A stretch of DNA of 64,000 nt from Sistotremastrum niveocremeum HHB9708 (taxonomy: Eukaryota > Basidiomycota > Agaricomycetes > Sistotremastrales > Sistotremastraceae), in contig KV419408.1 in NCBI GenBank assembly GCA_001630475.1, forward strand, positions 310,001 through 374,000, written 5' to 3'. The notes below the pieces were generated by a model that was not told where the DNA came from, searched no databases, and saw nothing but the letters and a program-made list of their open reading frames with translations. Below, piece after piece: positions 1 to 54,501 of this stretch. How positions within the stretch are numbered: the first letter of the stretch is position 1; each line of letters opens with the position of its first letter. The position numbers and the translations under genes were made by a program.

Positions 1-2904
1 GAGGCGTTCGTGGGGGTTCCATCGTAGATTGCCTGTGTATGAGCGATGCCCGGCGGAGGACTTTGGGCGTCGAAGGCGGTCCATCAGTTTTATTGACTTG
101 GCCATCCCAGAGGTTTACCAGATCATGGACTGAACTTTGACGACCTTTATGTCTTGGGCGCTTGCTTTCGGAGACTCTAACTGTCTTCTCCAGGTCTTCC
201 GGACCTTCGTCAGGATCACTGGATGAATCTTTAGCATCTGCGATCGACGATACAGAGGCAGATGGTTTCTGAGGGGAAGATTGTGAAGGTTCTGAACCAG
301 AACTAATTTTGCTCTCGGTCGTTGATCGCAAAGACGATAAGAAAGCTGGGCTGTTTGGCACACTACTGTCATCGCCCGTCAACCAATCTCTTGGAGGTAT
401 AGAATCCAATCCTTCCCCTTGTGGTGAAATCCCAGAAGCTATGTTCTCGGACGAAGGGGCCGAAAGCAAAGAATGATCTCGCGTGGTACTCCGGATAGAA
501 ACAGAACTGCGATGCCTCCGCTCCAATGGCGGCCGCGGTGATTGTTCTGCCTTAAGTGGCGCAACAGATCGTTTAACGTTGGGTACCTCGGTGGTTGGAA
601 CTATACGCAAGGCTGCGGGAGCTCGACTCAGGTTGCGCATCGCTGTACCCGTAGTCTGCTGAGAACGAGACTTTGATATGGCAATGGAAGCATCCAGGTG
701 AGTTGGAAACTTCAGGTTACCAGTCATGTGAGGCCGAGGTTTATTCACATCAGAATTGACAACGATTTTGTCAGAGGATGGCCGAGGGGGAAGTTCGGGA
801 GCCGGAGTTTCCAGCGAAGGGGATCGAAAGGCAGTGTCTAGTTCCTCAATAGAAGGGAATCGTTCCTCAGCCCGAAGAGAGACTTGAGATAAGGAACGAG
901 GTTGGGGGGATGGACGAGGTGACGTGGAAGATGTGAGCCCGGGTCCATCAGCAGGAGAAAGTGATGGTCCATAGCTCTTTGATGGTTGCAAGGAGCTTGT
1001 TGGAGTCGAGCCACTGGGATGAATTTTAGGCATAGAAGCAGTTGATGGTTGAAAGGAATCCAAGCCATGAAAGGCATCAGGGCGCGTTGGACTTGGTTCA
1101 GGAATAGGCCGGCTCGTGGCCTTACTTCGGGCTGGCATAAATGAATCCCCAAACCCAGTTGATGATTGTGTCGGTTTCATGGCGCCAAATGCTTCGCCGA
1201 ACGAGTCACCAAGTTCATTGGACTGTTGGAGACTAACAGGCTGACGCGCCGTACTCGAAGCGTACGCAACATAATCACCTTTGGCCACGGTGGACAATCG
1301 TTTGCCTGATGTTGAAGGCTTCACGTTCCAGGCATCGTCCAGACCAACGATCTTCTGGGAGCTGTTATTTCTGGAAGTGGAATTGCCAATTCTTGCCGTT
1401 TCCTGCAATTCTTCGGGACTTTCGTTCGAAGGCAATGAATGGGGCTTGGAGTTGTCAGCCGTATGTGAACTGGTTAATCGTCCCCGACGCATGGGAGTGA
1501 TGGCCTCCAAGACCTTTTGTCTCGCCATCTGACCAGTGTTCTGCGACGACGAGCTCTGCATCGACGAGGATGCTACGGTCAAAGGATTTTTGAGTGATGA
1601 CATTTCCCCGGCAGATGACGACAAGGCATGTTCTGATGGCTTCTGTAAACCTCTGTCAATATTGATTTAGAGAAGCTGTAAAGCGCGCTTGCTCACATAT
1701 TTGAACAAAGATTGTGTGCCGCGCATGCGATGCACCACATTCAGAAGATCAAAGACAGACGGTCGCTGTGAGCCGTGTTCCTTCAACATGGACGCTGGAG
1801 AGCATGTTCTTTAGCCAATTATACGTCGAAGTAACTATCTCTCACCGATCAACGCGTTCATCGCATGTGAGTACACAGGGTAAGGTGGAATCTTGAATTG
1901 TGCGTTCAAGATAGCCAAAGGACCGTGTTCTTCGAATGGTGTCGTATAATAACATAGTTTATAGAGCAATACCCCTAGCGCCCAAATATCTATGCGTTTG
2001 GATTCCAAAATTAAGAGCCCAAATCAACAGAAGACGAGAATCACTGACCGCTCTTTTCATCGACTGGCCTTCTTTGGAAGACATCGACCATCTCCGGCGC
2101 ACGGTATTGGAGAGTGGTATGTCGGTTAAGGTCTGCTTCGAGAGCTTTTAGTTCTGTCAAGGTCGAAGGTGGGTGGGAAAGCACAGCGGTCGCTGAGCCG
2201 AAATCACAGAGTTTGAAGAGTGTTGCAGAGGCTTGCAGGATATTTTCTACCTTGTTGAGAGATCATAAGAATGGATGGACGTTGGGATAGCGTGCCTCAC
2301 CTTGAGATCGCGATGTAGCAGTGCAGGTCGAAGATTGTGCATAGCTGCAACAGCTTCGCATACGTCGCAGAATATTTGCAAGATTTCTGACTCTGTCAAT
2401 CTTTCGCGAAGACGACGATTCATCATGTCAATAATACCGCCGCCAGAGCAGAATTCCATGAGAATGAACACTTCGAACGTCCCATTAGAAAGTCGATTCC
2501 AGGATGCGTCAATCAGGTGCACAATATTGGGGTGGCCACGAAGAATTCGCTAGATGCACGGCATTAGGCTTCAAGAATGAGTGGTCAAGTCGAAGTGTAC
2601 CATAACGTCGACCTCCTTCTGAACTTCTTTCAGCATTGTCTCGTCCGCAACAGCGATTCGTTTTAAGACGTGTCGTGTCGTCCCGAGGACCGGTTGCGCC
2701 GATTGCACCAGATAGACATGAGCATATCCTCCTGAGAAGTTGACATTAACGATGGGCAACCATGGGGGTAATTGAAAGGATGCCTTGGCTCAAATACCGC
2801 TCAACTTGGATCGTGTAAGTATTCACGAGGATGGTTTGTCCGGGTTGTAACATGGCTCCGTTTTGGGCCTGTTGTATATAAGTCTGGGGATGGTGCGCCG
2901 TCAT
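1..2904 (-). CDS. Ark1/Prk1/AAK1-family serine/threonine kinase, 3' end cut by window edge
   Basis: The N-terminal half is a protein kinase of the actin-regulating (Ark/Prk, AAK1/GAK) family, which controls endocytic actin patches in fungi. The spliced reading shows the glycine loop (GGYAHVYLV), an ALK-like VLKRI lysine, MEFCSGGG at the hinge, the catalytic HRDLKVEN, DFG in LCDFGSAT, and RAPEMVD. After about residue 330 comes a long Ser/Pro-rich tail, presumably disordered, with a DLVNLW motif like that in the tails of fungal Ark kinases. Position 2904 was chosen as start because its ATG is in frame and gives a Gln-rich leader ([12 protein letters not shown]); a second in-frame ATG lies at 2853. 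The first intron (2783 down to 2732) needs a GC donor, because the GT choices lose the GGYAHV frame. The gene runs off the left edge. Family call firm, exact paralogue not. Confidence 0.85.
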
Positions 2905-3159
2905 GTGGGCACGACCAGCATGCATCGTTCTAAATGTTTAGAGTGTGGTATAGAGCGAAGCAACAACTCTATCGACGATGAACACGGTCGCGTCTGAGTT
3001 GCCCAGCGAGCGTCACCAAAAAACGGCGTTATCGGTCTATCAACACTAATATAGTTCCAACCATGATAATTTGTATTCCAGTACACACAACAGTACATTT
3101 TCATTATGCACGTACATCCATTCGAATCCAAGAAGCCGTATTAGCAAACTGTGTCGAAA

Positions 3160-4535
3160 TTACCACTCAGAGATGCGTCCGTTCGCATCCAGGACGGTGA
3201 TCCCTCGTGCACCTAAACGTCGCTTCCATTGTCCCATTTCTCCCGCTAGGCCAGTAGCTCTGGCATGAGAGTTCATCGTACTGGGCAGCCACCGGGTCTC
3301 ACGTAATCTGACAAATTTCAGATTTTGCAAATAAGGAAGGACGCGTTCGATCTCCTTCAAGAACGTTGGTGTAGGTTTAGGGACCGAAAGACACTGCAAA
3401 GGATGCAGTTGAGTGATGTGGAGCATAGGGAGCGGATTGGCCAGAGACAGATAAGTGAGATTGGGACAGCTTTGTAAGACCGTGGAGGGCATCTGATGAT
3501 GTGATGGAGGAAATGAAGGCTGAGGATCAAAGCGCAAAGACAGCAGTTTCCCGCCATGATTGGCTAAGATCAGAGGCGCAAGAGAAGCCGGGAACGCTAA
3601 GCTGCCATAGGGGGAAAGAGTGAGGCTACGAAGAGAGGGAAGAGGTGAAGAGGCAAGCGCGAGAAAGAGTCCCGATGAGGAAATGGAGCGCAGGGAAAGC
3701 ACACGAAGGTTGGGGAGATGAAGGTGCTCTACAGTTGGGATGTTCGCTTCCTCTGTGTAGATTTCCATCTCATCATCTGGAACGCCATTTCCGACCAAGT
3801 CGAGATGCTCCAGGTTTGTACAGTTCCTCAAAAGATCGAGGATGGGGTCGTCATATGAACTCAGGTTACCGTCGAGTTCTACGAGAGATGGCGCGTGATC
3901 TCTCATACCACATAAGGTCCTGAGACCCGCGCTATTGGGAGAACCAATGAGACTCTTTATTGTTCTCCTGCTCAGCGAAATCTGGTTTAGTAGAAGAGTC
4001 GATAGGAAAGGAAGGGCTGGGAATAGATTTGCCATGGCATCGTCGATTAAGCTGGCGTCGTGGCCAGATTGACATGGGATCTTTGACAGATCAAGGACAT
4101 GGACCCATCTGCCGGGGGTCGAATAAGGGATACGGTCTAAAGCTCGCGGTTTCCTTTCGCGGCTGTTAATGCGACCGCTAAACTGAATGAATTTATCCAG
4201 GGTACGGATCAGTGGATGAGCAAAGAACAATGGAGTAGCGATGGTCTAAGCACGAATGTCAAGCATACCTCTCAGGAAACAAGAGACGGCGCACGAACAT
4301 TGAACAATTTGTTCACTAGCAAAATATCTCTTTCCCATGCAATGTCCTGGATCAGCGAACGGTCACAAGAGTCGAATGCTACTGCAAGGATGCGATGCCA
4401 TGTCTCTGCAGGCAGTTTCGGAAGTTGTTTAGGCTCCGGCAGAAGAGGAACAAGGATGAATTTGCTCGGAACGAGAGCATAAGGTCTTGGGGTCAGAAGT
4501 ATATCGCTTTCAACAAGCTCGGTAGTACTGCTCAT
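3160..4535 (-). CDS. F-box protein with leucine-rich C-terminal region
   Basis: Two exons. The first carries an F-box-like start (LPAETWHRILAVAFD, then LLVNKLFN). A 53-bp intron (about 4277 to 4225) joins it in frame to TIATPLFFAHPLIRTLDK, the usual sequel in basidiomycete F-box proteins. The rest is a run of irregular leucine-rich segments (for example LEHLDLVGNG, LRVLSLRS, LRSLTLS, LTYLSLANP), which suggests an LRR-type substrate-binding surface. By family such proteins are adaptors of SCF (Skp1-cullin) ubiquitin ligases; the substrate cannot be guessed. The protein ends GRISEW. It lies tail to head behind the kinase gene, with about 255 bp between them. Confidence 0.75.
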
Positions 4536-4651
4536 AGCACTGAGAGGCGACCCATGGCTGGACAGACGTGGCCTTTAGGAGTGTTGTTGTCACGCGAGGT
4601 CACCCGGCCCTGCGCGACTTGAAGTTGGTTGCCTAGTCATAATGGCCCCTC

Positions 4652-5595
4652 ATGGCCGCAGTCCAAGCTATCGACTTCAGCGTTATCAATGCATTCACGA
4701 CCTCAGCGTTTAAAGGGAATCCTGCTGCAGTAGTTGTCCTCCAAAAGGAGTTGCCTACGGATCTTCTCCAATCCATCGCTCGAGAGCTCAACCAGCCGGT
4801 CACTACATTCATAACTCCCCTCCCTGGCAGTGGCGCAGATCCAACCAACTTTTCAGTGCGCTGGTTCGTCCCAAGTCTTGAGCTCCCCTTATGTGGTCAT
4901 GGAACAATTGCGGCCGCGCATTACATATTTTCGAGGTCTGCAGCTGCTTTAGAGGCAGGGAGGCTGGTTTTCCAGACCCGCAGCGGATCTGAAGTCGTCG
5001 TTACAAACACGACGGATGGCAGATATGCTCTTCAGCTTCCGGTCGAGGCGATGCAATCTCTTGATCAATCGTCCGAGATCTCACTGAGGGACATATTCTC
5101 GCGGGCGTTGGGTTGCGATCCCAATCTCATCTTATCTATCAGAGCCGGGACGAATTCGACCAAAACTTTCGTTCTGGTCGAGGTTGATAATAGAGCTGAA
5201 CTCGCAAAATTGGAAGTTGACAAGGCTCTACTCGTGAGTCCCCCGTGACCTAGAAAACCGAGTTCGGGATTGACCTTTCTGGTTTACAGCGAGGAACAGC
5301 TCCTTTTGTCATGAACATCGTGACCAGTTCAACCGACACCGAGGACGTAACGTTCGTGTCTCGGGTCTTTGCGCCTCTCACAGGTGTAGATGAGGATCAT
5401 GTATGCGGCATTGCTCATACTTTGCTTGGCCCGTATTGGTCCGAAAAGAAATCTATTCCCAACGGAGAAGAGTTGGTGGCTAAGCAGGTCAGTCCCCGCG
5501 GGGGTGATCTTGGAGTCGTCTGGGAAGCCGCAAAAAATGTCTGCATTCTGAAGGGCTCAGCTCGACTTGCCTTGAAGGGCACTCTTTACGTGTAA
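4652..5595 (+). CDS. PhzF-family (phenazine biosynthesis-like) protein lacking the catalytic Glu
   Basis: Two exons, 4652-5233 and 5290-5595, split by a 56-bp GTGAGT...CAG intron. The start has the family signature (INAFTTSAFKGNPAAVVVL), followed by LPLCGHGTIAAAH and late in the protein VDEDHVCGIAHTLLGPYW. The fold is that of diaminopimelate-epimerase-like isomerases, and the length of about 295 residues fits the family. In PhzF the acid/base Glu sits in the pattern ARE-N-LSE-TF. Here that stretch reads IARELNQPVTTFI, with Val in place of Glu. The TGSA motif is also altered, to CGIA. The protein may therefore bind a ligand without isomerising it, or use different chemistry. It converges on the aminotransferase gene, 86 bp away; a shared pathway is possible but nothing shows it. 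Confidence 0.85.
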
Positions 5596-21481: not shown

Positions 21482-22745
21482 ATGTCCTACGAACAATACG
21501 TACGTTTTTCGTACCCAAGCTCATCCCAGACAACTCACGTCTTTTCCAGAAAAAAGATTGGCGTCCACCCGTCCAAGACACCGAGACGATCCCGGGTAAA
21601 CAGCACGAGATCAATCCACCTCCTCTCGACGACATCACCAGTGATGGCAAACCATACAAGCCAGCGGGAAAACTTGAAGGCAAAAGTGCTATCATCACCG
21701 GCGGAGACTCGGGCATTGGAAAAGCTGTTGCGCTGCTCTTCGGTATGATTTTGTGCGTTTCAATTAAGTTTTGTGGATTCTTAAATGAGCAATAGCTTTG
21801 GAGGGTGCTGATCTGACAATCACGCATCTTCCCGAAGTCAGTTTTCCTCATCCTGGATAGTGCAGACGCTGACAAGTCTCTAGGAGGAGAAAGACGGGCA
21901 AGATGTTGTCGATCTGATTTACAAGAAGACCAAAGGCACCCGCGTCGTCCAGAGAATATCCCTGGATTTGCAGAAAGAGGATGCGTGCAAGCAGCTGGTA
22001 GAGTTCCATCTCAAGAAGTTTGAAAGCGTTGATTCACTGTCAGAACGTTTTCTCAAAAGTCATGGGAGGTGCTGACTGCGGATCGGACAGAGTCTTGAAT
22101 CACGGAACTCAGAAAGCGGAGCAGGACATTACGAACCTGGATTCGCAGCAGTGGCTCGACACCTTCAATACAAACATCCACTCTTTCTTCTTCATCACCA
22201 AAGCAGCGATCCCTCATATTCCGTCAGGTGGGACAATCATATTCAATGCGTCCATCAATCCATCCGTAGGCCACCCGGAGCTTGTCGACTACACGGCCAC
22301 GAAAGGTGCAATCGTTGGATACGCCAGGGCGATCAGCAACCAGCTCGTTGGTGAGAAGGGAATTAGGGTGAATGGTGGGTCTGAAAGCATTCAAGATGAG
22401 TTGCAGTATAGCTGATGAGCGCACAGTCGTTGCACCCGGACCTATATGGACACCCTTGATGTGAGTCTGTATGCCAATCTGTGCCTGTGAAGAATATTGA
22501 CTTGAGCCGTGCTAGACCGGCCACGATGTCGAAAGAGTCGAAGGAGACATTTGGAACGACGACTCCGATGGGTCGGGCTGGACAGCCTGTGGAAGTCGCA
22601 ACGTGCTTCGTGTTCCTGGCTTCAGCAGACTCTGGCTACATCAGGTAAGAAACGTTATCGAGATTAGAGTGTGCTCACCGAGCTCATATTGCTGTTAATT
22701 AGTGGACAAGTGATTCACGTTAATGGAGGGACGGTTATAGCGTAG
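21482..22745 (+). CDS. Short-chain dehydrogenase/reductase (YghA/YhdF-like)
   Basis: Classical SDR with a 50-residue N-terminal extension (KKDWRPPVQDTETIPGKQHE), like bacterial YghA/YhdF and their fungal relatives. The Rossmann loop is ITGGDSGIGKAVALLFA, giving TGxxxGIG. Catalytic residues are the Ser in IIFNASINPSVGH and the YxxxK of DYTATKGAIVGYA. The tail has VVAPGPIWTPL and GQVIHVNGG. About seven exons; the first encodes only MSYEQY. The substrate is unknown; relatives are annotated as sugar or aldehyde reductases. Two TGACGTCA-like sites (about 21392-21399 and 21420-21427) lie 55-90 bp before the start and could bind a bZIP factor. Confidence 0.85.
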
Positions 22746-49068: not shown

Positions 49069-50315
49069 CTATGTCAAGTCCGTGCCTTCTTTACCCATGT
49101 CCCACTCTCGTACACTGCCGCGACTCTTGTAACGCAAGTCCATGATGCCGACTTCCTGCTCGTCTAATTTCTGGCGTCGTTTCTCAACATCCTCCCAAGC
49201 AAGAACCAAGCCTTTGTCTTTCTTCTTTTTCTTCTTCTTGCTGTCGTTGTCACTGATGCCATACAGCTTCTCTAGTCTCTTCCGCTCCGCCTTGTCTTCG
49301 CGTCGCTTCTTGATGAGATCCAACATGGCGTCCCAGCCTTCGAAGCCCTCGGCAGGAATCAAGCCTTTGTCGGGTACGTCGGGTTTGAGGGATAAAGGGG
49401 CAGTATCGAGACGGGGATCGTACTGTTCGGAAAAGTACTTGTCCATCTTGGATGACGGCATTGGATCTGGATCTGGCGAAGGGGAGGGGGAGGGTGTTGT
49501 AATTTTCAGGGGCAAAGTCGAACCTGAAGCGATGGGAGATGGAGATCGGGGAACTGTGATTGGTCTGAATTTTGGTTTGGGTGGTGGAGATGGAGAGTTG
49601 GGCCTGGTAGACCTTGTCGGCTTTGGAGAGGGAGGCGGAGAGGTACGGGAGTGCCGGCGATCGCGGGAAGAAGAGCGACGGGATCTGTGTTTGCGTGACG
49701 ACGAGTGTCCTTCGTTGCTTGTTCGAGATTTGTGAGATCGACGTGAAGGGGAGCGCGATCTCGTCCTGTCCGATCTTGAGCGACCCTTGTCGTCGTCGTC
49801 CCAGTCTCTCTCTTTCCGCTTCCCGCCTCTCCGGTCGCGCTCCCGACGCACGTCCCACCGCTCATCGTCGCTGTCTCTCCGCAAACTCGAACCCAAGAGT
49901 CGCTTCGTTCGAGAGTCGGTCGCTTCCCGGGCCCGGGCCGCCCTTTCGCGTCGCTCCTCTTCCTCTCTCGCCGCCTTGGCTTCCGCCGCCAACAACGCCT
50001 GTGCCCGCAACACGGACTTGTTATGGTCGTCCGTACTCTTGATCACAGAACTCAGAAATCGTTTATTCGTCTTTGGTGCATTGCTCTCCCTTTTGAGATA
50101 GAAATTAGAATATATTCATGGACAGACAAACATGTCACGTACGTAGGAAGGTAGGCCCGTACGCCCTCTGTAGAATATTGTGTCGCCTTCTTCTTCGCCT
50201 CCTGTACAATAAGTTCCGCAATGTGTCGGTCCAGCTCTTCGTCTGTCACATTCGTAGGCACCGACGCCCCCATTGATGCCCGCACCAATTGAGATACGAC
50301 GTTCGAGAGCGCCAT
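49069..50315 (-). CDS. RS-rich nuclear protein, probably splicing-associated
   Basis: Two exons. The N-terminus (VTDEELDRHIAELIVQEAKK, then TEGVRAYLP) is joined by a roughly 50-bp intron to SNAPKTNKRFLSSVIKSTDDHN. A Glu/Arg-rich coiled stretch follows, then a long RS/RD region (about 49640-49830). Proline-serine repeats and a compact C-terminus come last, with KMDKYFSEQYDPRLD, GFEGWDAMLDLIKKRRED and GIMDLRYKSRGSVREWDMGKE. I know the MDKYF--YDPRLD block from fungal and animal RS-rich nuclear proteins but cannot name the family. The RS repeats suggest a role in pre-mRNA processing. Divergent from KAP114 over 111 bp. Confidence 0.65.
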
Positions 50316-50426
50316 TGCTGTTTGAGATTATTTGTCGCCAACGCTCGCCTTCCATTCACTTCCGAATTCCGCCTTTGCCTCCTTTCTTGGTCTCGCCCTG
50401 CATTGTCTCTTGCACTCTGCTTCAAC

Positions 50427-53400
50427 ATGTCTTTAGATCTCCTTACGCCGCTTGTGGGCACGTTGAGTCCAGATACCAACACCCGAATGTCCTCAGAACT
50501 CGCTTTGGCCGAACTTTCAAAAAACCCAGGTACTTTCGTCTTCAGTCCCGATCACCCTGGATCTCATTCACGCGTAATCTGCTTCTCAAGAGAGTAGCAT
50601 TGCTCTCGCCAGAGTCCTTTTGTCCCAAGAAGCGGATATTAGCGTCAGACAGATGAGTTGCGCGCGTTTTCTTGCCAGAATTTGTCGCTTACCTTTCTTG
50701 TGTTATGCACTCTGCGGGCACTGTCTTAAGAAAGTATATCAACGAACACTGGTCACCATACTTTCCATCTTTCAAGGGCAACGCGCCCTCGATAGAGGTG
50801 CTTCCTACCTCCCCTTTGCCCGAGTCATTCCTCACGTGGTTCTAGATAAAATCGGTCGTCCGCGAAGCCATCTTGCAAGGACTCTCAGATCCAAATAGAA
50901 AGATCAGATCACTATGCGTTAGCACTTTGTTCGTCGTTCACGATCTCCCTCTGATGAATACTAGGCCTACATTCTCTCCACTATTGCACACAGCGATTGG
51001 CCAGACGATTACCCTGCTCTCCTCGATCAACTCGTCGCCCTCATATCCTCCAATAATAGCGACAGCATTCACGGAGCCATGCAAGTCTTTGCCGATTTCA
51101 TCAAAGCCGACTTGACAGAAGATCAAGTGCTGCCGTTGTTACGACAACTCCTTCCAGTCATGATCACCATCATCATGTCACCTCAGGCAAGTTCCCATTA
51201 TCAGCCAGAAACCTCAACTAACACTTGTCACAGAGCCACTCTCCCCTGACGCGTGCGAGGACAGTAAAAGTGTTCCGACAATGCGTAGAGTCACTATACA
51301 TGGTCCAAGAACAACACCCGCAAGCCGTCAAGGAAGCAGTTGCTAATGTCCTTCCCAGCTGGATCGACGCTTTCCAAAAGCTTCTCGAAGTAGACGTTCT
51401 TCCAGAGGTTCAAAATACCGCAGACTGGGATGCTTTGGTGTTACGAGTGCAACTCTACAAGGTATGTGCCGCCAGCTACACTCATCGTTCGTCTTTAACT
51501 CTCGTTGCAGACTTTGGAGACACTCCATACTACGTTCCCCAAAGCCTTGGCATCTTCTCTCGTCAACCTCCTTCAATTAAGCGTCCTCCATCTCGTCACT
51601 CTACTCCCCGCCTTCACGACTTTTCATCTCCCACCCACCGAATCCGCACCTGGATGTTCCGAGCCCGACGAGAGCGTTTCTCTGCCTCAACTTTCCACCA
51701 CGATCCTAGATTTCATCGCTGCTATCGCGCGCGGTGGGAAATCTAAAGCCTGGTTCGCTAATACTTCCAATCTCGAAACTCTCATCCAAGCCATTTTTGG
51801 CTGGTCACAGATGTCTGAAGATGATGTACGTGCTTCTTATGCATTGGGTTCTTCTAGTCTAACGCTGCTCGTTTTAGGAAGAAGAGTGGGCAGAGAATGC
51901 AAATGCATTCGTGGCGCAAGAGAAGGATGAGAACCTGGAGAAATATGGTCCGCGAAGTGCAGGGTTTGATTTAATCGGCGTATGTTCTATAATTCTCTGT
52001 TCAACCGTTATTGATGATGTCGAAAGTCTTTGATCGAGCGTTGGCCCTCAGTCACTGTGAAGTGTCTGCAAGCAGCTACTCAGCAAGCTTTACAGATCTC
52101 GCAAAACGCTCGTCAATCTGGACAGGATGATTGGTATGTTAGTGGCTTGTAAGATATGCTCTATTTCTCACTGCGAGTAGGTGGCGACCTTTGGAAGCTT
52201 CATTGGCTTGTTCTGCAGCCAACTCGGAGTCCATTACTGAGTACCTGGAAGAGGAAGATGGTGTGCAAAGCTTCGACGTCAAGAATTTGTCATCGGAGAT
52301 TCTGCCGTCTCTCCATCAGCTCTCAGGTTAGTCCGCCTTGCTACCAGTCCAAAACGAAGCCTAGCTAAGACTTCACCAGCGACTCCTTTTCTACAGGGGC
52401 GCAGCTTTGTCTTCGCGAGCAAATTCGCGTCTCTTCTTTCCTCTGACGTCGCTCAGCAATATTTCTCGGCTGCCATCGAGGTGGTGGAATCAAATAATGT
52501 CGGTGTCCCTGTCAAATTGTCTGCGGTCCTCGCAATCAAAGAGTAAGACAGCAATATACAATTGCCACAGATTTTGATCTGACACTTATTTCAAGCTTCT
52601 GCCGTTATGTGGATGGTAGCCGGATGAGTCAAGTCGCACCACGTCTGGCGAATGATCTTGGTCCTCTGCTCTTGGTAGCGACTGAAGATACATTGTCACT
52701 TACTCTAGAAACAATCGGTGTTTTACTGGAAGTTGACAAGGGCGCATGGTTAGACTCTACACTCGCAGTCTCCTTGGCTACAGCCTTTCTTGAGGTGTGG
52801 AGGAAGAATCTGAAAGGTACCTTTCACGGCATACGAATCTCGCCAATTCTGAAGTTGCGCAGATCATATCATGATGTCTATCCTTGAGAGCAATTTCTTG
52901 ACCCTCGTATCCGTCTCGGCCGACGGAGTGTACGAAGCCGTTCTGAATGCTACTCTGCCCCCATTGTGCCAGGCCCTGTTGTCAACGACCGCTGACGAGA
53001 GCTGGGTTGCTGGTTCTGCGCTTGATCTTCTGGCGAGTCTGATGAGCAGTACATCCCGCCCGGGACTTTTACCCGGTCTATTCGAAGTCATCGCTACGCC
53101 CCTGTTCCACGCATTAGACAATACGGAGGACCGAGATGTCATTCAGGTATCTTCTACTCTGTTCTCCGAATCTAGAAAGCCGCTTATTAATGTTTTCAGG
53201 CTGCCGTGACGTGCTTGACCCTTGCTGTGAAAAGAGACTTTGCTCAGGTCCTCGGCTGGCATCAGGCTGATGGACGGACAGGCCTTCAGCGTATTCTAGG
53301 TGTTATTGCGCGATTGCTTGAACCGTCGAAAGATGAATCAGGAGGATTGGTGGTTGGAGATCTCATCGTTCAGCTCATCCGACAAGGCGGGGACTCTATC

Positions 53401-54501
53401 AAGCCTCTACTCCCCGAATTAATCCAAGCTATGGTCCTCCGTATGCCAACCGCCAAAACGGCGACTTTCTCACAGGTATGTTCCGAGACTGTATTATTCA
53501 TATACTTTTCTGACGGACATGAAGAGTTTGATCGTTCCTATCGCTCTCTTGATCTATCTCGATTCAACGGCTGTCATCCAGTTATTGGAAGAGACTTCGA
53601 TTCCGTCTCCTGATCAGGGTACGCGCAGTGCTTTGGACGTGTTCTTGAATACTTGGTGTGAGAATGCGGTGACGATACAGGGCTTGTGGGCTTCCAGAAT
53701 TAGGTGCGAGAGTCTTAGCCTGGATTTTATGCGAACGAAGTTGACCTTGGGTTAGTGTTCTCGCGTTGTGCCAGCTATTTGCTTCGGATCGGTCGAGTTT
53801 GAAACAGGTGCATGTTCAAGGTGATATGCTCATAATGCCGGAAACCAAAGATGGTATGACTTTACATCCTCGGATTCGGTGCTGAACTAAATCTGGTGCC
53901 AGTTATAGTCACTCGCGCACGGGCTAAGAAAAGTATGGTAAACGTTGGATCTCTGGGCACGATATTGACAAGCCTTATAGCCCCTCACAAATTCGCTTCT
54001 ATCCCTTTCCCACTCAAAGCTCTGAAGTTGATCTTGAGCGAACTTCGATCGGAGGGTGACGGTGAGAGGGTAGACGGACAAGGCAATCCTGCTGTAGATC
54101 TCGACTCAGATGACGGAGTGAGTTCTAGCAGACTTTGCACATACGAATGCTCATCAGGTGCTCTAGGATGAGGACTGGGCCGACGAAGAGACTCAATACC
54201 AGGGATTCAAGAAGGATGAATTCGAGTTTTTGTCTGAGATGTTGGGCCCTGGGGGTGCTAATTTCGACAATGACGAAGATGTGGATGAAGACGAAGATCT
54301 TCTCAACGATCCTGTTTCCCAGATGGATATCAAAGTACGTCAATTGCCCTTGATTCCCATCAATGGCTCAATTCGTATCAGGGGCATCTGGTGTCTTTCC
54401 TTCGAGAGTGTGGTGCTAGGAACGTGAATGATATCTCTCAGCTAACGAATGAATTAAATGCAGAAGAAATACTAATACTACAAAGAGCCGTACACCAGTA
54501 G
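50427..54501 (+). CDS. KAP114: Importin-9 / Kap114 karyopherin with an AT-AC intron
   Basis: A large importin-beta-type HEAT-repeat receptor in about 18 exons. Exon 1 is MSLDLLTPLVGTLSPDTN through LSKNP. Later blocks follow Kap114/Ipo9: YFPSFKGNAPSIEVK, GLSDPNRKIRSLCAYILSTI, SIHGAMQVFADFIKADLTED, LTRARTVKVFRQCVESLY, LWASRISVLALCQLF, and an acidic C-terminus ending EEILILQRAVHQ. By family it imports TBP, histones H2A-H2B and other cargo into the nucleus. One junction cannot use GT...AG. Removing 50653-50710, which starts ATGAGT and ends GCAC, restores VRQSAGTVLRKYINEHW exactly. All other junctions I checked are canonical. Confidence 0.85.
50653..50710 (+). other. Candidate U2-type AT-AC intron in KAP114
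   Basis: A 58-nt stretch lies between the codons for VRQ and SAG. It starts ATGAGTTG and ends TTATGCAC, with a branch-like CGCTTAC and a pyrimidine-rich tract before the end. Excising it in phase 0 gives the family reading RQSAGTVLRKYINEHW; no GT...AG pair of normal length keeps the frame. The ends look like an ordinary GTGAGT...CAG intron with the first G changed to A and the last G to C. That combination is known to splice on the major spliceosome. Confidence 0.7.

Follow-up and report, generated by a model that had tools for sequence, protein, structure and literature searches.

How a 58-nt segment bounded by AT and AC might be removed from the transcript of a conserved karyopherin gene, and by which spliceosome, is the question raised by this locus. 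The gene lies in a window of 64,000 nucleotides, the whole stretch of DNA that was analysed, and its model comprises 19 exons and 18 introns (16 GT-AG, one GC-AG and one AT-AC), the intron ends from 50798 onward being taken as the ab initio model predicts them. Residues 5–1023 of the predicted product align with human Importin-9 (E 2.2e-91), and the Pfam IBN_N profile matches residues 24–97 (42 bits). An IBN_N domain together with a full-length Importin-9 alignment places the gene in the KAP114/importin-9 family, the identity proposed in the preliminary description. Judged by this alignment the gene looks intact, and the end-to-end agreement of the rest of KAP114 with Importin-9 counts against gene decay. 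Coordinates are collected in Table 1.

Table 1. Features of the KAP114 locus, in window positions; a slash marks a splice boundary.
Feature	Position	Strand	Basis
KAP114/importin-9 family karyopherin gene	50427..54501	+	spliced model, 1,051 aa; Importin-9 alignment
Intron 1, GT-AG, 61 nt	50530..50590	+	joint NP/ESSIALARV inside gap-free Importin-9 alignment
Exon 2, ending ...ISVRQ	50591..50652	+	spliced model and homologue alignment
AT-AC intron, 58 nt, major-spliceosome type (proposed)	50653..50710	+	joint, donor score, IBN_N
5′ splice site ATGAGT, exon CAG before	50653..50658	+	donor score against 226 GT donors
Branch-like site CTTAC	50688..50692	+	19 nt from its A to intron end; putative assignment
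3′ splice site AC (TGCAC)	50709..50710	+	no AG from branch-like site to here
Exon 3, SAGTVLRKYINEHWSPYF...	50711..50797	+	spliced model and homologue alignment
GC-AG intron, CAG/GCAAGT...CACAG	51187..51233	+	gene-finder prediction and donor scoring

The complete segment at 50653–50710 reads ATGAGTTGCGCGCGTTTTCTTGCCAGAATTTGTCGCTTACCTTTCTTGTGTTATGCAC; it begins ATGAGTTGCG and finishes TTATGCAC, confirming the ATGAGT...GCAC sequence first described, and its terminal dinucleotides are those of a U2-type AT-AC intron. Its length is not divisible by three, and the reading frame shifts across it. Joining the CAG of exon 2 to TCTGCGGGC yields SVRQ/SAGTVLRKYINEHWSPYF, a joint that may also be written VRQ/SAGTVLRKYINEHW, and the predicted spliced junction is ...GTCAGACAG joined to TCTGCGGGC. 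This joint is gap-free against both human Importin-9 (RQLASVILKQYVETHW) and yeast Kap114 (RQFALLSLRKLITMYW), so that VRQ stands as it does in the karyopherin family, and residues 5–55 before it align without a gap to Importin-9 and with one two-residue gap to Kap114. We regard the segment as very probably a U2-type (major-spliceosome) AT-AC intron, also called AT-AC II; we infer its excision, its use of the major spliceosome and the choice of its branch point each from the sequence. Its ends may have arisen from a GT-AG intron by a change of the first G to A and of the last G to C, a compensated pair. The segment has a single match in the assembly, as would also be the case if a sequencing or assembly error had altered the ends of a real GTGAGT...GCAG intron. 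Such an error would need two independent substitutions that fall exactly on the two terminal bases of one intron, and in precisely the combination that the spliceosome tolerates, and we hold it to be highly improbable.

To place these signals among local introns, we trained a gene finder on the window together with C1:1-200000 (264 kb); it gave 49 genes above threshold with 232 introns, 226 of them GT-AG and 6 GC-AG. The GT-AG introns have a median length of 52 nt (5–95%, 46–69 nt; 1st percentile, 43 nt; n = 227, within a finder range of 40–150 nt), and 58 nt stands at the 86–89th percentile of the 222 that are at most 100 nt long, a length like that of neighbouring introns, as had been claimed. 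When its first two bases are ignored, CAG/ATGAGT scores 4.11, above 220 of the 226 predicted GT donors, on donor and acceptor matrices trained on the same introns later used for ranking. Outside intron position 1 the donor context is thus that of the major class, in keeping with its description as GTGAGT with the first G changed to A, and the acceptor context outscores 170 of the 232 predicted introns. The branch-like CGCTTAC had likewise been called typical of its neighbours: CTNAY sites occur in 128 of the 222 GT-AG introns up to 100 nt, and the 19-nt distance falls within their 5–95% range of 7–24 nt, but the CTTAC form is unusual, with T in third place in just 3 of 61 CTNAC sites. The donor of the GC-AG intron within KAP114 outscores 223 of the 226 GT donors, and five further GC-AG introns are predicted in above-threshold genes within the 264 kb.

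A donor context as strong as that at 50653 occurs at 20 of the 35,370 AT dinucleotides on both strands of the 264 kb, and two of these 20 have AC at +58, the KAP114 site and position 22396. The latter segment (22396–22453, AAG/ATGAGT) overlaps a canonical GT-AG intron at 22375–22426, in a short-chain dehydrogenase-like gene. This chance site at 22396 lies inside the canonical intron, so the end pattern by itself is no proof. Sliding the 232 predicted introns from −9 to +12 made 19 of 4,872 false boundaries AT-AC, none with a comparable donor, and the 58-nt removal, slid over the same range, shows a recognised end pair (GT-AG, GC-AG or AT-AC) at the zero position only. Because the end pattern is not unique, the main weight comes from the protein, which requires a removal of 58 nt.

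Canonical splicing could satisfy the reading frame in several ways. Enumerating the GT-AG and GC-AG removals of at least 15 nt around the segment that preserve the frame and leave no stop codon gave 42 choices, 9 GT-AG and 17 GC-AG with intron 1 spliced as in the model and 9 and 7, respectively, with exon 2 skipped. SVRQ is kept in nine of them and VLRKY in 14; RQ and TVLRKY survive together in a single case, and in none of the 42 do 2 to 5 residues separate RQ from TVLRKY. That single case is the 22-nt GT-AG removal at 50657–50678 on the plus strand, which had been named as the alternative and is indeed present and in frame, at the cost of a 12-residue insertion. Its length is far under those predicted, lying below both the 1st percentile and the 40-nt floor of the finder, and its donor, TGA/GTTGCG, scores −7.49 against 4.11, below all 226 GT donors.

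We then scored ten readings with the Pfam IBN_N profile, three of them from the 42 canonical choices. The AT-AC removal at 50653–50710 ranks first (35.1 bits), ahead of GT-TG 50657–50714 (30.7 bits), GC-AC 50662–50710 and GT-TG 50657–50702 (26.0 bits each), AT-AC 50653–50692 (25.7 bits), the 22-nt GT-AG removal (22.0 bits), GT-AC 50644–50710 (19.2 bits) and GC-AG 50662–50734 (13.4 bits); two readings, one of them canonical, have no IBN_N match. The 22-nt intron was rejected on its donor and profile scores, and with the two other canonical readings at 13.4 bits and without a match, we consider splicing by any canonical choice, exon 2 skipping included, very unlikely. The AT-AC removal had been presented as the only clean reading. 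It is the best on IBN_N, but a gapless rival had gone unlisted: the second-ranked GT...TG intron, also of 58 nt and in frame, would give RQMTGTVLRKY. That intron would share the poor TGA/GTTGCG donor, would require an exceptional 3′ site to end in TG, and would replace the A of RQxA that Importin-9 and Kap114 have in common, which leaves it improbable.

A further possibility is that there is no intron here, translation beginning at the ATG at 50705 (MHSAGTVLRKY...) or the first exons being dead. The gene finder does predict the start at 50705, even with AT-AC introns allowed at priors of 0.001 and 0.01; a prior of 0.1 makes it choose the AT-AC intron, and one of 1.0 adds to this intron a second AT-AC pick upstream, which we regard as spurious. 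With no prior penalty in 50301–51300, allowing AT-AC gains 3.63 nats, seventh of 255 dinucleotide pairs behind TC-AC (5.03), GC-AC (4.64), AT-GT (4.61), AG-GC (4.2), AT-AT (3.81) and GC-GA (3.72), some of the higher-gain pairs acting through introns at other places. Coding statistics by themselves are weak and fail to pick the AT-AC intron at a prior of 0.01. A start at 50705 would, however, discard residues 24–55 of the IBN_N match, and the alignment of residues 5–55 to Importin-9 and Kap114 is coding-like; we give an intronless reading very little credence.

Removal by the minor spliceosome, as a U12-type AT-AC intron, would account for the AT and AC ends. The U12 branch has a longer form, TTCCTTAAC; the closest matches in the segment agree with it at 6 of 9 bases and are two in number, followed by 34 and by 17 nt of intron, the one with 17 nt overlapping CTTAC, and the branch region thus favours neither type. 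The donor ATGAGTTG, however, fits the U12 consensus ATATCCTT at only 3 of 8 positions, in agreement with the earlier statement that a U12 donor is lacking. The U12 donor, which may also be written [AG]TATCCTT, is given as ATATCCTT in the excerpt of PMC2846911, and the U12 branch as CCTTAAC in that of PMC3033335.

We searched the fungus's own genome (34.7 Mb, 111 contigs) for the spliceosomal snRNAs. U6 was found as five genes (85.3 bits) and U2 at eight places over the cut-off; all eight U2 matches lie on one contig (C6), and the five U6 genes are spread across four contigs. U12, U11 and U4atac gave nothing at E ≤ 10 among the first-look candidates scored (42 of 996, 39 of 1,751 and 48 of 695, respectively), and U6atac reached at best 17.2 bits against a cut-off of 33 (46 of 1,447 scored), with five of the ten listed U6atac sites overlapping U6 genes. 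U1 was also missed, and with candidates scored only in part, the absence of minor snRNAs is supported short of proof. Neither the SCNM1 zinc finger (no match over the cut-off) nor PDCD7 (no match) was detected, results of little weight given that the control genomes were also silent. This fungus seems to be without a minor spliceosome, and with a poor U12 donor and no U11, U12, U4atac or U6atac match over the cut-off among the candidates scored we judge a U12-type intron extremely unlikely. DUF6534, a domain typical of mushroom-forming fungi, has 16 matches in this genome, 12 of them over the cut-off. One fungus that counts against a general absence, Cutaneotrichosporon oleaginosum, is a basidiomycete. 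The excerpt of PMC7072748 reports minor snRNA genes in it. On the other side, in the parts of these articles at hand, Basidiomycota are named as a lineage without U12 introns (PMC2846911) and no convincing minor introns are recorded in Ascomycota or Basidiomycota (PMC10639083).

If the segment is spliced as a U2-type AT-AC intron, U1 and then U6 would read a normal donor, CAG/NTGAGT, in which intron position 1 is the sole departure from GTGAGT. The branch point would be an A some 19 nt from the 3′ end of the intron. During the second step, the initial A and the terminal C would form a non-Watson-Crick pair in place of the usual G-G, and exon ligation would be directed to TGCAC/TCT. According to the excerpted text of PMC8283771, a non-Watson-Crick pair between the two terminal bases of the intron couples one step of catalysis to the other; yeast accepts A-C as the sole replacement for G-G, and A-C is occasional in human introns. 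For a mutated yeast intron, AT-AC ends are described as second in efficiency to GT-AG alone (PMC6726248, in part), and the yeast exchange and its efficiency suggest that the same may hold for the KAP114 intron. The passages seen of both articles thus bear out the earlier statement that in yeast a change of the first G to A is offset by a change of the last G to C.

That the major spliceosome removes some AT-AC introns is already known (PMC7072748, in part), with Wu and Krainer 1997 and Dietrich 1997 given as references in the excerpt of PMC3584512. Known AT-AC II introns share the ends and the major-class donor context of the KAP114 intron, which differs in being fungal, 58 nt long and in a karyopherin gene, and in that its splicing is predicted whereas theirs occurs. 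The same ends were engineered in yeast as the pair of first G to A and last G to C (Parker and Siliciano 1993, as cited in the available parts of PMC8283771 and PMC6726248). Yeast is an organism without a minor spliceosome, and its AT-AC cases in these sources are either engineered or, like the natural protointron in SUT635, in a non-coding transcript; alternative AT-AC use is also described in RPL30, and no standard yeast intron is normally AT-AC (PMC6726248, in part).

Among other fungi, the portion of PMC2846911 at hand counts two 'other AT-AC' (non-U12) introns in Phakopsora pachyrhizi, next to some 570 others and with the entry '-?' for minor-snRNA status, and 31–32 non-U12 AT-AC introns in Phycomyces, which has U12 snRNAs. 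In Trichoderma longibrachiatum, AT-AC makes up 69 of 14,305 RNA-seq junctions, with classes unsorted (PMC4324775, in part). These junctions are rare as well, and the excerpts give them as counts, without descriptions of single introns; AT-AC is stated to be much rarer in fungi than in animals and plants (PMC7072748, in part). GC-AG introns, such as the one in KAP114 itself, are likewise rare donor variants that are otherwise of the major class, but they retain the pair of first and last G, whereas the KAP114 AT-AC intron changes both ends. Literature searches made without the gene name returned no report of an AT-AC intron in KAP114. The intron type is therefore already known, fungal counts included, and what is new is this KAP114 case.

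If spliced as read, the intron would be a natural counterpart of the yeast experiment, set within the coding region of a conserved gene in a fungus seemingly without a minor spliceosome. Relatives could reveal in which order the two ends changed, and so whether evolution goes by way of a poorly spliced form. Where AT-AC is forbidden or carries a heavy penalty, a gene finder loses the first two exons and begins the protein within the intron. In our runs the start fell at 50705 unless the AT-AC prior was high, with the loss of the first 55 residues, an error that other annotations might share.

Elsewhere in the 264 kb, the finder at a prior of 0.01 placed four AT-AC introns in genes with a score of more than 15, the KAP114 intron not among them, and the same test with 17 other dinucleotide pairs gave 0 to 4 introns (AC-AC 4, TA-AC 3, five pairs 0). 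AT-AC picks at this prior show no excess over these null pairs, and none of the six made at any gene score was accepted. The best-looking candidate, ATGAGT...TGCAC/AG, lies at C1:165015-165075 on the minus strand in an inositol polyphosphate multikinase gene, where a 103-nt GT-AG alternative is also in frame. Against the solved homologues the AT-AC and GT-AG readings score 77.7 and 76.1 bits (2iew), 41.4 and 44.6 bits (4o4c) and 31 and 38.7 bits (5w2g), and the GT-AG reading appears to fit about equally or better. It is doubtful, though conceivable, that AT-AC introns with major-class donors form a small but stable class in this lineage, recurring through paired end changes with the multikinase intron as a second candidate, and that a slow second step could brake Kap114 expression. 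Also on C1, near the contig end, a long open frame is predicted at 107–4920 on the minus strand, which we take to resemble a retrotransposon Gag-Pol.
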